64,000 bases of DNA, taken from an uncultured Hungatella sp. (lineage in GTDB: Bacteria > Bacillota > Clostridia > Lachnospirales > Lachnospiraceae). Location of the stretch: assembly GCA_949879795.1 (NCBI GenBank), contig CATLBR010000017.1, positions 1-64,000 on the forward strand, in the 5' to 3' direction. The notes beneath the pieces are model-generated. The model was not told the origin of the DNA. It saw only the letters and a list, made by a program, of their open reading frames with translations, and ran no database searches. Both the position numbers and the translations under genes were made by a program. Of this stretch, positions 16,006-20,054 are shown piece after piece; position 1 is the stretch's first letter; each line of letters begins with the position of its first letter.

Positions 16006-17031
16006 TTAGTGGCTGGCTATATGGGTTTGGGGCTGTCCGAGTGCAGCCTGATTTTTTACCCTCTCCCGTATCTGCAGGACGAATGATTCTGGTTCCAGAA
16101 CTTTTATCACAGGTCCGAAAGACAAAATCTGAATCAGAAGTTCGGTCTCCCACCGCTTGTCGTAGTAGATGGTGCAGCGATATCTTCCCGTGTCTTCCAG
16201 CCTCTCCACCTTCTTCTGGTAACAGGAAAAGTGGAGCATGGCCCGCTCTAAGGCGTTGCGCTCCGTGGTGATCTCCAGAACTACAGGTTCCCTGCACAGC
16301 GCGCGGTTCAGAAACGCATCCACATCTACAGGTTCGGGAGAGAATTTCCCGGTTTCCTCTGCAGACAGGATCCTTGCCACATTCAGCACATCCATACGCC
16401 TTCTGCCGCTTGTTCCCGCTGACATGGCATAGAGACGGAATTTGCCGTCCCTCTGCCCGTATTCCAGCCGGCATGGAAGGCAGGTGCAGGCGAGGATGCG
16501 TTTCTTTCCTGTCATGTAGGACAGAGACAGAAGCTGCCGGGTGTACAGGGCATTCAGGATCACATACATATGTTTCCTGTACATCGCCGAGGAAAAGGGG
16601 TCGTGGTCGCCGTACTGGTCAAAGAGGCAGAAGTCCGACACGCGGAAAAGAGGTTTGGTGTCCTCCAGCCATCGGTTCAGCTCCGTGAGCTGGCAGTCAG
16701 TGAAGAACAGGCAAAAGCGGGGGTCAGACACCAACGCCTTTAGCCAGGATTTTTGAAGATTTGTGAGAGGCTGGGGAAAAACAGGGTGTTTCAGGCGGCA
16801 GCCGTAGAATCCGGGGCGCCGAGAGTCTGATTCTAAAAAGGGCCAGCGCCCGGAAACCAGCTGAGGAACGATGGAGAGACCGCTTTCTCCATAGCCGTAT
16901 TCACCGGCCAGCTTTTCCAAGCGGGAACGGGTCACAGGGTGGCTGCCCGCTTCCTGAAGTATCCGGGCAACCACCTGATAGTAACATGTATAAAGCTCGG
17001 AGAACAGAAAAAAGTCATGGTTTTTCATCAT
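16006..17031 (-). CDS. WYL-domain protein (distal gene of pair)
   Basis: This 341-residue protein has a central WYL-type ligand-binding region (LLSLSYMTGKKRILACTCLPCRLEYGQRDGKFRLYAMSAG) and a C-terminal WCX-like segment (VVLEITTERNALERAMLHFS; WETELLIQILSFGPVIKVLEPESF). The N-terminal 130 residues are poorly conserved and show no obvious HTH. WYL domains bind nucleic acids or nucleotides and occur in regulators of CRISPR, phage-defence and RNA-repair loci. It overlaps the preceding WYL gene by 17 bases, so the two are translationally coupled and may act as a heteromer. Confidence 0.8.
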   Translation of the reverse strand: MMKNHDFFLFSELYTCYYQVVARILQEAGSHPVTRSRLEKLAGEYGYGESGLSIVPQLVSGRWPFLESDSRRPGFYGCRLKHPVFPQPLTNLQKSWLKALVSDPRFCLFFTDCQLTELNRWLEDTKPLFRVSDFCLFDQYGDHDPFSSAMYRKHMYVILNALYTRQLLSLSYMTGKKRILACTCLPCRLEYGQRDGKFRLYAMSAGTSGRRRMDVLNVARILSAEETGKFSPEPVDVDAFLNRALCREPVVLEITTERNALERAMLHFSCYQKKVERLEDTGRYRCTIYYDKRWETELLIQILSFGPVIKVLEPESFVLQIRERVKNQAALGQPQTHIASH

Positions 17032-18274
17032 CTGAGTAGTCTCCTGAGGGCAGATAATATGCTTTCATCATATCCATATCATTCCAGAAGCGCTGCTCTA
17101 CGGCAGGATTGGAACAGCAAAAGGAGCGGATTCTGCCTGTAAAAGATTTTATCCAGGGAAGAAGCTCGGCGGCATCGAGACAGACCCGGCAGTACTGGTA
17201 CACTCCTGGCTCCAGACGTTTTAACACGCCCCCTCTGCCCTCCCGGTCAAGCCTGGCGAGGATGTGGGTTTCTTCCTTCTCGTCAAGACAGATCTGGGCA
17301 GACACGGTTTCCGCGGCCCGGGTATCTCCCAGAGATACTCCCCACATGCGGGGAAATATGTCCTGATAATGTTTCATATGATTTTCGTAGTCCGGGTCAG
17401 GTTCCAGAACCACTGCGTTCTGTATGGTGTCAAGGCGGAAAGTAGACAGACGGTGAGAACCCTGCTGCCCGGCACATACGTATCTTCGTCCTGTCTGGGT
17501 GCTGATGAGGATTTTCAGAGGGGTGACGGTTACGTCCCTGGCGCGTCGGCCTCTGGTACTTTTTACCGTCATAAGGACTCCGGCCTGTCCTTCCATGGCT
17601 GTCAGGAGGGCGAGAAGGACCTCATCCTCCAGGGTGTGAACCAGATAATCACTGCGGAAACGAAAATATTCATTTTTTCTGTCCCAGAAGTCCAGGACAG
17701 TGCTTCCGATGAAGCCAAAGGGAGCAGCGCCCTGAAAGAAGCCGACAGCCCGGGCCAGAGGCTCAAGAAGCTGGTCCGGCGGCATGGAACGGCATCCGGC
17801 CGTGCCGTAGAGGTGCTGCCGTCCTTCTTTCCTGCGGACCACAAGTCCTTCTCTCTCACAGGCCGCCAGCTTCCTGCGGATGGTTTGAGTGTCTATGAGA
17901 CAGCAGTACTGTTCCTGAAGCTGGTCGGCTATGGTCTCCACACTGCGGAATCTGCCGTCGGCCAGAAGATCCGGAAGAAAAAAACGGAGAATTATATCGT
18001 TGTCCGTGAAGGTTTTTGACTTCCATGCCTGATACAGAGGATTCACAGCCATGCGGCTGGAGTCCATTGTGAGGAAAACCGATTTTTTTCGGCCGTTTTG
18101 GTCTGCCTGCATGTATCCGGAGAACCAGCTTTCCATGCGGCGGCGCTGGTTATCGTAGGTCCTGCCGCTCTTTTCTCGAAACTCCTCCCTGGTCTTAAAG
18201 CCGTAGATGTAGAAATCCCGGACATAGGACCGTATCTTGTCAAACTGTCTGATCAGTTCTTTGTACTCTGACAT
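17015..18274 (-). CDS. WYL-domain transcriptional regulator (proximal gene of pair)
   Basis: This is a 419-residue protein from ATG 18274 (MSEYKELIRQFDKIRSYVRD); a longer frame to 18430 runs into the promoter region. The N-terminal part contains a winged-helix-like stretch (SVETIADQLQEQYCCLIDTQ, then TIRRKLAACEREGLVVRRKE). A WYL core follows (VTPLKILISTQTGRRYVCAG, then GSHRLSTFRLDTIQNAVV) with a C-terminal WCX-like domain. It is transcribed away from the structured RNA locus and slipin gene with which it shares an intergenic region. Regulation of that RNA/slipin unit is the simplest hypothesis. Confidence 0.85.
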   Translation of the reverse strand: MSEYKELIRQFDKIRSYVRDFYIYGFKTREEFREKSGRTYDNQRRRMESWFSGYMQADQNGRKKSVFLTMDSSRMAVNPLYQAWKSKTFTDNDIILRFFLPDLLADGRFRSVETIADQLQEQYCCLIDTQTIRRKLAACEREGLVVRRKEGRQHLYGTAGCRSMPPDQLLEPLARAVGFFQGAAPFGFIGSTVLDFWDRKNEYFRFRSDYLVHTLEDEVLLALLTAMEGQAGVLMTVKSTRGRRARDVTVTPLKILISTQTGRRYVCAGQQGSHRLSTFRLDTIQNAVVLEPDPDYENHMKHYQDIFPRMWGVSLGDTRAAETVSAQICLDEKEETHILARLDREGRGGVLKRLEPGVYQYCRVCLDAAELLPWIKSFTGRIRSFCCSNPAVEQRFWNDMDMMKAYYLPSGDYSDDEKP

Positions 18275-18360: not shown

Positions 18361-18641
18361 GCGAAAGACCGCAAGGTTCGCAGTGTTTTTGAAATGATAT
18401 TTCCAAAACTTCATGGTAGTATAAAGGCACCGAAAGGTTATGATTCCGGCTTACAGTTCAGGCGTAAAGGCAAAACGGTGCCGCTGCACTGCAGTACGGT
18501 ATGCCGCCGGAAGCGTATGGAGGACGTTCAGTCAGGGACTGAAAGCGGTCATCCCACATTGATTATCGTGGGTTCGAATCCCACCGGTGAAAAACCGTTG
18601 CTTAGGTGGATAAAGCGATCAACAGACACCTGTCACGTGTC
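18361..18641 (+). ncRNA. Y-RNA-like structured RNA with permuted tRNA mimic (YrlA type)
   Basis: The core at 18559-18622 folds as a tRNA opened at the anticodon and closed at the acceptor: TTGAT | variable TATC | T stem GTGGG, loop TTCGAAT, CCCAC | CGGT-GAAAA-ACCG in place of the acceptor | TT (positions 8-9) | D stem GCTT, loop AGGTGGATA, AAGC | G26 | ATCAA pairing with TTGAT. The U8-A14, G15-C48, G18-T55 and G19-C56 partners are all present. Known YrlA Y RNAs have this closed-acceptor tRNA mimicry. Flanking hairpins are GCGAA/TTCGC (18361-18381), GGCACCG/CGGTGCC (18426-18482), TTCAGTC/GACTGAA (18527-18543) and GACAC/GTGTC (18625-18641). The fold is seen in the sequence; the Y RNA identity is inferred, and the exact ends are unknown. 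Confidence 0.78.
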
Positions 18642-18959: not shown

Positions 18960-20054
18960 ATGAAATATCAGATCAACCAGAATCAGTGCGGCTTTCTGAT
19001 GAAGGACGGCCGTTTTGTAAAGACGATCTACAGCGGGACTTACCATTTTCTAAAAACCTTTGGATATGAGGTGATTGTGGAGGATATGGAGGGGCTGGTG
19101 GGATTTAACAAAGTGCCAAAGGAGATACTGCTGAAAGAGGATGAGACATTTGCCGCCAAAGTGCTCCATGTGGTGATTCCCCAGGGATTTATAGGGATTT
19201 TGAAGAAAAGCGGAGTGATTCAGAAGGTTTTGACAGAGACGGAGTATCTGTACTGGAACGTGTGGAACCGGTATGATGTGGAGCTTTTGGATATGACGGA
19301 TCCGGAGACGGCGGCAGACGTGGGAAAGGCCTGCCTGGCCCAGATCCCTCTGAAATATTATAAAAAGATTGAGATTCAGCCGGGAGAGCTGGGGATTCTG
19401 TACTATGACAACCAGGTGGCAAGGGAGCTGGGGACAGGCACCTACTATTACTGGACTTACTCTAAAGACGTGCTGTGCAGGGTTGTGGACTTGAAAAGCC
19501 GCCCTCTGGAGATCAGCGGACAGGAGATTCTCACGGCAGACCGGATCGGGGTGCGGATCAATCTCATGTGTACATACAAGGTGGTAGAGCCCAGGGTCAT
19601 GATCGAGACCATCAAAAACCTGGAAAATCAGGTTTACTCCTGTGTTCAGCTGGTGATCCGGGAATACATCGGAAAATACCGTCTGGATGAACTGCTGGAG
19701 CAGAAGGAGGACATATCTCAGTTTATCTTCCGGAGACTGAAGGAGGTGGAGGGGGATTACTGTATCCGGTTTCAGAGCGCGGGGATCAAGGATATCATTC
19801 TTCCGGGGGAGATCCGGGATATTATGAACACGGTGTTGGTGGCGGAGAGAAGAGCTCAGGCCAACGTCATCACCAGGAGAGAAGAAGTCGCCTCCACACG
19901 GTCGCTGCTGAACACGGCGAAGCTGATGGACGAAAACAAGACTTTGTACAAGCTGAAGGAGATGGAATGCCTGGAGAGGATCTGCGCTCAGGTGGGCAGC
20001 ATCCAGGTAGGCGGCGGCGCGCTGCTGGAGCAGCTTCAGGCTTTGGTGAGGTGA
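18960..20054 (+). CDS. Slipin/SPFH (band 7) family protein
   Basis: This 364-residue protein starts MKYQINQNQCGFLM, with GGAGGGAG before the ATG. Its first 150 residues contain two repeated short units (VVIPQGFIGILKKSGVIQ and IEIQPGELGILYYDNQVA). A band-7/SPFH domain follows (LKSRPLEISGQEILTADRIG, VRINLMCTYKVVEPRVMIET, VIREYIGKYRLDELLE) and then a helical tail (AERRAQANVITRREEVASTRSLLNTAKLM). No clear membrane anchor is visible. Slipins of this build are found with Ro60 (TROVE), Y RNA and RtcB genes in bacterial RNA-repair loci. Here it directly follows a Y-RNA-like sequence and faces WYL regulators. Confidence 0.85.
   Translation: MKYQINQNQCGFLMKDGRFVKTIYSGTYHFLKTFGYEVIVEDMEGLVGFNKVPKEILLKEDETFAAKVLHVVIPQGFIGILKKSGVIQKVLTETEYLYWNVWNRYDVELLDMTDPETAADVGKACLAQIPLKYYKKIEIQPGELGILYYDNQVARELGTGTYYYWTYSKDVLCRVVDLKSRPLEISGQEILTADRIGVRINLMCTYKVVEPRVMIETIKNLENQVYSCVQLVIREYIGKYRLDELLEQKEDISQFIFRRLKEVEGDYCIRFQSAGIKDIILPGEIRDIMNTVLVAERRAQANVITRREEVASTRSLLNTAKLMDENKTLYKLKEMECLERICAQVGSIQVGGGALLEQLQALVR

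Follow-up and report, generated by a model that had tools for sequence, protein, structure and literature searches.

An unchargeable, permuted tRNA mimic with an apparently switchable anticodon arm lies upstream of slipin genes and is a candidate bait for tRNA-attacking enzymes

What is a tRNA-like structure with no free end doing upstream of a slipin gene? The question is raised by a locus in the window, the whole stretch of 64,000 nucleotides that was analysed, from an uncultured Hungatella sp. The original prediction, made from sequence alone, had placed a circularly permuted tRNA mimic resembling the core of YrlA-type Y RNAs at 18559–18622. The features of the locus are listed here, with the alignment A7 described below.

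16006–17031, − strand: second regulator, which has a WCX domain and partners the WYL protein (Pfam WCX, E 1.7e-5); its homologue adjoins the first WYL gene in many relatives
17015–18274, − strand: WYL-type regulator, divergent from the RNA (Pfam WYL, E 4.6e-4; its 20.6 bits fall slightly short of the 21.8 cut-off)
18377–18398, + strand: conserved promoter/operator-like element TTCGCAGTGTTTTTGAAATGAT; the pattern TTCGCA..TTTTT.. is found in 43/65 loci
18477–18505, + strand: 5′ domain of the RNA, GGTGCC...GGTATGCC; the same element stands upstream of slipin in relatives
18527–18543, + strand: upstream hairpin with a 7-nt loop, TTCAG-TCAGGGA-CTGAA; U33 lost in the window
18559–18563, + strand: central stem (anticodon-stem position), 5′ strand TTGAT, pairing with 18618–18622; two-sided changes in 5/5 pairs in A7
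18564–18567, + strand: variable stretch TATC
18568–18584, + strand: T arm with loop TTCGAAT; TTCNA loop in 39/39 A7 rows, 100% of cells paired
18585–18597, + strand: closed acceptor hairpin CGGT-GAAAA-ACCG; two-sided changes in 4/4 pairs and 100% paired in A7
18598–18599, + strand: TT between the closed acceptor and the D arm
18600–18616, + strand: D arm GCTT-AGGTGGATA-AAGC with GG in the loop; GG in 38/39 A7 rows, two-sided changes in 3/4 pairs
18617, + strand: G26
18618–18622, + strand: central stem, 3′ strand ATCAA, partner of 18559–18563
18625–18641, + strand: anticodon-arm mimic GACAC-CTGTCAC-GTGTC; loop identical to the tRNA-Asp (GUC) loops of related genomes
18960–20054, + strand: slipin (SPFH/Band 7; Pfam Band_7, E 4.6e-26, 92.4 bits, cut-off 23.6)

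The permuted tRNA body with its closed acceptor at 18559–18622 was confirmed, and every element that had been named for it, including the variable stretch and G26, lies where it had been placed. Because the acceptor is closed by a hairpin, there is no free end to bear CCA or be charged, and the RNA lacks the open acceptor stem by which a transfer RNA is recognised. ARAGORN called no tRNA and no tag peptide in the window, and Rfam at its curated cut-offs returned nothing in the window and did not report the RNA in any of 12 relatives. The minimum free energy does not stand out from that of shuffled sequences (z −0.72 and z −0.56), so folding the single sequence neither proves nor disproves the structure. 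The evidence for the RNA is comparative.

A search of public genomes with the window's slipin protein yielded 18 loci. A T-loop module stands 323–543 nt upstream of the slipin match in 17 of them, and the remaining contig ends 98 nt upstream. Of 56 distinct regions, each taken as the 1000 nt before slipin, 48 contain a T arm, compared with 9 of 496 control pieces of 1000 nt in which real tRNA genes were left; a T arm followed within 0–2 nt by a hairpin of at least 4 bp was found in 47/56 slipin regions and 7/496 control pieces. Close slipin homologues were present in 21/397 genomes of the family, 11/392 of the order, 10/391 of the class and 7/378 of the phylum, the window's own genome being included each time.

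Compensatory change in relatives, the test that the original prediction had set for itself, was then run, and the RNA passed it in two alignments. Alignment A1 holds 18 sequences including the window and was made with MAFFT, independently of any structure model. It has 95.6% paired cells, two-sided changes in 10/23 pairs and a covariation score of 0.206, compared with 0.131 after shuffling; none of 500 shuffles reached its paired-cell percentage, its count of two-sided pairs or its covariation score, and the count of further pair types was not above shuffles (437/500 reached it). A covariance model, R1, was built from A1, and the 39 sequences of A7 were aligned to it, giving 97.2% standard-pair cells, two-sided changes in 20/23 pairs and a score of 0.647 against 0.166 shuffled. 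Being fitted to R1, A7 leans towards the structure, so that A1 is the cautious result. Its predecessor A6 (45 rows) contained three rows of real tRNA genes, recognised by eye (L055 at 7665 and two in L057), and A7 was therefore made with a stricter threshold, which also cost three genuine but weaker rows (L121, L136 and L123).

Searching the family with R1 gave 50 matches in 48/299 genomes, an overcount because 20 of the matches (27.0–28.9 bits) were counted without inspection of their loci. The other 30 comprise the window itself, 18 genuine permuted mimics (L023–L039 and L043, with L023 and L018 on one contig in G277) and 11 overlaps with real tRNAs. These last, L040–L042 and L044–L051 (27.5–30.9 bits), each coincide with at least one real tRNA gene and were not kept as mimics; L043 (30.3 bits) is genuine and was retained. 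Within the window's genus, two of 11 R1 matches (L151 and L152) proved to be tRNA clusters, and a real match was found in 9/26 genomes, many of them incomplete. A viral-contig hit (L142) matches an 18-base piece exactly amid phage-like genes, has no R1 match and was treated as chance.

The hairpin at 18625–18641 is a second part of the RNA, beyond what had originally been called. It has the features of a tRNA anticodon arm, namely a 5-bp stem, a 7-nt loop, U33, a purine at position 37 and a loop found in real tRNAs. Close relatives copy other tRNAs in this loop: L010 and L011 carry CTTCCAA, exactly the real Gly UCC loop, and L009 carries CTTAAAA, exactly the real Leu UAA loop, on a stem changed to AACAC/GTGTT. 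Further exact real loops, found elsewhere, are those of Tyr (L054, on a 4-bp stem, and L064), Leu (L118), Lys (L127) and Asn (L153, read by eye). Two of these, L127 with its Lys loop and L153 with its Asn loop, each amount to a complete tRNA in permuted order, having T arm, closed acceptor, D arm and anticodon arm. A slipin tree, most of whose other forks are unresolved, contains the sister pairs L010/L012 (support 99/98) and L011/L017 (95/92). Each pair has one Gly and one Asp loop, and in both base 38 changes together with the anticodon. Since L012 and L017, the partners of Gly-loop L010 and L011, are both Asp, the switch from Asp to Gly appears to have happened twice, unless recombination exchanged the loops.

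Exact real loops are commoner than chance would give. In a test designed after the pattern had been noticed, and using 23 real anticodon loops from 52 tRNAs as reference, real loops occurred on 11 of the 239 distinct hairpins with a 5-bp stem and a 7-nt loop in the regions, versus 17 of 2459 in the flanks (binomial P 1.2e-6), a control that is conservative because real tRNA genes were left in it. One hundred dinucleotide shuffles gave a mean of 0.35 and a maximum of 3, versus the 11 observed. With 4-bp stems the counts were 15/585 in regions and 27/7536 in flanks (P 6e-9), and 100 dinucleotide shuffles gave at most 3. The hairpins are not all independent, as one homologous arm accounts, in variant forms, for three of the 11; counting these once left 9/237 (P 4.9e-5), and additionally dropping one probable chance hit left 8/236 (P 2.7e-4). 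That hit is AAGAC-TTTTGAT-GTCTT in L116, a hairpin with other loops in L112, L115 and L118. At the position 3′ of the core, 12 of the 39 A7 rows have an exact real loop, 23 combine U33 with a purine at 37, and eight have no 7-nt loop. By eye, tetraloop-like hairpins stand there instead in L094, L104 and L109 (loci that coincide with L113, L123 and L128), and within the window's own clade U33 has been lost in L005 and L007, which carry G33.

Several other arrangements were seen. Two mimics stand in tandem, as read by eye, at L102/L121, L105/L124, L106/L125 and L108/L127. In L116 and L155 the loop that closes the acceptor hairpin reads CTGTCAC or CTGTCAA and is itself an Asp-type anticodon loop or differs from one by a single base. 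L060 and L133 have an anticodon-like hairpin with the loop CTGTCAA upstream of the mimic rather than downstream, on differing stems. In L054, L055, L057, L060, L064, L133 and L135 the permuted mimic has another T-arm-like hairpin after it, in some cases flanked by TGG and CCA (partly by eye).

Upstream of the tRNA body, the hairpin at 18527–18543 is possibly a decayed Pro-type anticodon arm, to judge from its counterpart in L008, whose loop TTTGGGA is identical to real tRNA-Pro loops. ARAGORN calls of tRNA-Pro upstream of slipin in L007 and L008 are false, being made of this upstream hairpin and the T arm. The 5′ element, GGTGCC...GGTATNCC in relatives, was found upstream of slipin in 39/57 regions (one genome counted twice). 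The pattern TTCGCA..TTTTT.. stands on the slipin strand, no more than 3.5 kb upstream of the gene, in 38/57 slipin loci, mostly about 330–660 nt away where no RtcB intervenes and about 1.8–2.1 kb away where RtcB lies between; it resembles a promoter or operator common to these loci.

By gene order, the RNA belongs to a module of WYL regulator, RtcB and slipin. A WYL homologue occurs in 16/19 loci of the window's clade and 30/38 slipin loci outside it. RtcB is encoded in 24 of those 38 outside loci, lying between WYL and the RNA in some and downstream of slipin in others, with several contigs truncated; within the clade it is present in 2/19 loci and missing from 17, two of these on truncated contigs, and in the window's genome it is on another contig. 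Pfam confirmed the identity of RtcB in L052, L054 and L066. For the two regulators Pfam recognised WYL and WCX only, and NCBIfam returned nothing. Within the genus the module is patchy (9/26 genomes, many incomplete), as accessory stress or defence genes are. It probably serves RNA repair. Slipin-type genes have been linked to rtc genes elsewhere: in Anabaena, a passage in PMC10272220 describes loss of TrcR as derepressing both rtcB and a slipin gene, and in P. aeruginosa PaFlo8, a passage in PMC13086221 describes an SPFH gene in an rtc locus with RtcA, RtcB and RtcR.

Related mimics also occur in other settings. In the family relatives L061, L063 and L066, YrlA-type mimics lie near RtcB homologues and adjoin 690-aa proteins; the one in L061 has no Pfam match, and the one in L063 matches NCBIfam RING_SCO0854 below the cut-off. 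Near these mimics are repeated stretches resembling ACAGCTA...CTTACTTCT (by eye), and L061 and L063 also have the operator-like element TTCGCA..TTTTT... At L067:6072–6168 a permuted mimic stands directly upstream of a DUF2828/DUF7788 protein, which we take to be possibly Ro60-like and which could be another Y RNA partner.

The slipin itself has no apparent transmembrane segment, as judged by eye and from an AlphaFold2 model (mean pLDDT 75, pTM 0.57, C-terminal helix poor). The model places tandem N-terminal beta units (window 18960–19500) ahead of the SPFH domain. Three N-terminal segments are alike in sequence: the A/C similarity beats all 500 shuffles, while A/B is matched by 0.2% of shuffles and B/C by 1%. 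Best fold matches are to prohibitin and stomatin, with prohibitin aligned over residues 122–295. Among the fold matches listed, a vault protein is the one that also spans residues 2–295, nearly all of the slipin, at a large rmsd, and it is outscored by ordinary stomatin, prohibitin and HflK folds; the modelled resemblance to vault proteins is a lead, not membership.

What, then, is the RNA? Chance folding, or a decayed tRNA gene, would fit the unremarkable folding energy, but on the comparative data is already refuted: covariation in A1 and A7, recurrence upstream of slipin and two-sided changes in the closed acceptors leave it a negligible probability. The likeness to YrlA stood in part. Permuted tRNA mimicry and a YrlA-like topology, including a tRNA-like domain with a closed acceptor, are present, and the YrlA model RF02553 matches 18563–18617 at a permissive threshold (28.7 bits, E 5e-4 for 701 bases). 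This score is well under the curated cut-off of 69, which was likewise unreached in five more distant relatives (34.7 and 32.6 bits in two, none listed for the other three). The match spans model positions 26–82 only. The Ro60-binding end stem, in which the 5′ end pairs with the 3′ end and by which Y RNAs are defined, was not recognised; the full model aligns in L121. No Ro60/Rsr (TROVE) gene, usually adjacent to YrlA, was found in the available 65% of the window's incomplete genome, where absence is unproven, or in any of 18 RNA-bearing relatives; 25 of 27 further slipin genomes were also without one, and in the other two it lies far from the slipin locus. Among the 26 genomes of the genus, G003 alone gave a TROVE match, a weak one, and G003 lacks an R1 match. 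With no partner in 43/45 relatives, and in a WYL/RtcB/slipin setting, a standard YrlA Y RNA acting with Ro60, as the shared core topology and weak Rfam match might suggest, is highly improbable.

Two further explanations keep the RNA but give it other work. It could be a ribonucleoprotein scaffold, Y-RNA-like without Ro60, whose tRNA-like body docks a tRNA binder, for example RtcB or PNPase, as another domain docks a slipin ring, tethering the enzyme to the cage; the anticodon arm would then be a mere docking surface. A precedent exists in YrlA, whose basal stem, according to a passage in PMC8394870, binds Rsr and whose tRNA-like domain binds PNPase. The slipin is an SPFH protein of the ring-forming kind without an apparent transmembrane segment, and the 5′ domain recurs in 39/57 regions. 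A scaffold, however, leaves the exact loops of different real tRNAs unexplained, and Ro60 is missing from 43 of the 45 relatives checked; we regard it as a serious but rather doubtful candidate. Alternatively, the mimic may be a cis-acting leader of the slipin mRNA, where its binding or cutting would alter translation or stability and so control slipin, in the manner of the thrS operator. It lies on the slipin strand, about 250–550 nt upstream in loci with a T arm; no terminator-like + strand site was found between RNA and slipin in the window; and 29/56 loci have GGATACC within the final 400 nt ahead of slipin, where mononucleotide shuffling predicts 0.023 per locus. Yet GGATACC is absent from that interval in the window, a 687-aa gene separates RNA and slipin in L060, the 12 kb covered for each of the related mimics L061, L063, L066 and L067 contain no slipin, and the YrlA precedent is a separate RNA. 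We regard control in cis as an unlikely account.

We favour, tentatively and at a probability of about 0.4, a bait: the RNA of the WYL/RtcB/slipin module would act as a decoy or a sensor, directed at enzymes that cleave or bind the anticodon loops of tRNAs and tied to repair by RtcB. Comparison among relatives shows a conserved fold, a shared gene neighbourhood and exact anticodon loops, which appear to switch; that the RNA is transcribed and serves as bait, we infer. Baiting or sensing is the simplest function that would account for the importance of loop identity, its switching among close relatives and the link to RtcB. The structured RNA would consist of the 5′ domain, a permuted, unchargeable tRNA body and an anticodon arm copying a real tRNA loop, in the window that of Asp. 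On attack by an enzyme the body would offer a tRNA-like surface and the arm would be cut in place of a tRNA; RtcB, from the same module or from elsewhere in the genome, could reseal the cut ends. The slipin ring may hold the RNA or the repair complex, WYL regulators would switch the operon on, and the identity of the anticodon would change as the threat changes. For YrlA, a passage in PMC7790460 raises competitive inhibition of a nuclease as one possible role; the paper also reports that Salmonella YrlA is not cut by the RecA-dependent tRNA nuclease, which counts against the bait reading. So, on the loci compared, do the restriction of exact loops to 12/39 A7 rows, the tetraloops and lost U33 of some relatives, and the absence of RtcB from 17/19 loci of the window's clade. 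A more elaborate form of the bait, which we consider quite improbable, is an RNA-repair particle built like a vault or cage. In it a soluble SPFH protein, bearing beta repeats of vault type, would house a Ro60-free, Y-RNA-like mimic whose swappable arm baits anticodon nucleases and is resealed by RtcB; toxins that cut tRNAs, or nucleases triggered by phage, would drive the anticodon identity to evolve as in an arms race.

Throughout its class the RNA joins tRNA mimicry with RtcB and slipin, and L153 and L155, both judged by eye, extend the linkage to the phylum outside that class. Exact, switchable anticodon loops make a bait role for tRNA-cutting enzymes testable. No description of this RNA was found in the open-licence literature, and related remarks may exist elsewhere. 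Work by Chen in 2014 reportedly collected bacterial Y RNAs near Ro60, so Ro60-free tRNA mimics would have been missed.

Among known systems, the thrS operator binds its synthetase by imitating an anticodon arm. Such tRNA-mimicking mRNA operators share with the RNA described here an anticodon-arm mimic, in what here too may be an mRNA leader; the arm in the window differs in being joined to a full permuted tRNA body, and its anticodon varies among close relatives. The rtc locus of P. aeruginosa PaFlo8 likewise embeds a slipin/SPFH gene among RNA-repair genes, whereas the passage that describes it mentions no tRNA-mimic RNA (PMC13086221). tmRNA and other tRNA-like RNAs share a T arm (weak RF00023 match), but the acceptor of the window's RNA is closed and no tag peptide is called. 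YrlA (RF02553; rsr-yrlBA-rtcBA operons) has the same permuted core of T arm, closed acceptor and D arm, open at the anticodon position, and linkage to RtcB is common to both. The RNA in the window differs in that no Ro60 gene was found with it, its Rfam score falls far under the cut-off and the Ro60-binding stem is not recognised; it adds to the shared core a 5′ domain, an anticodon arm and adjoining slipin and WYL genes.
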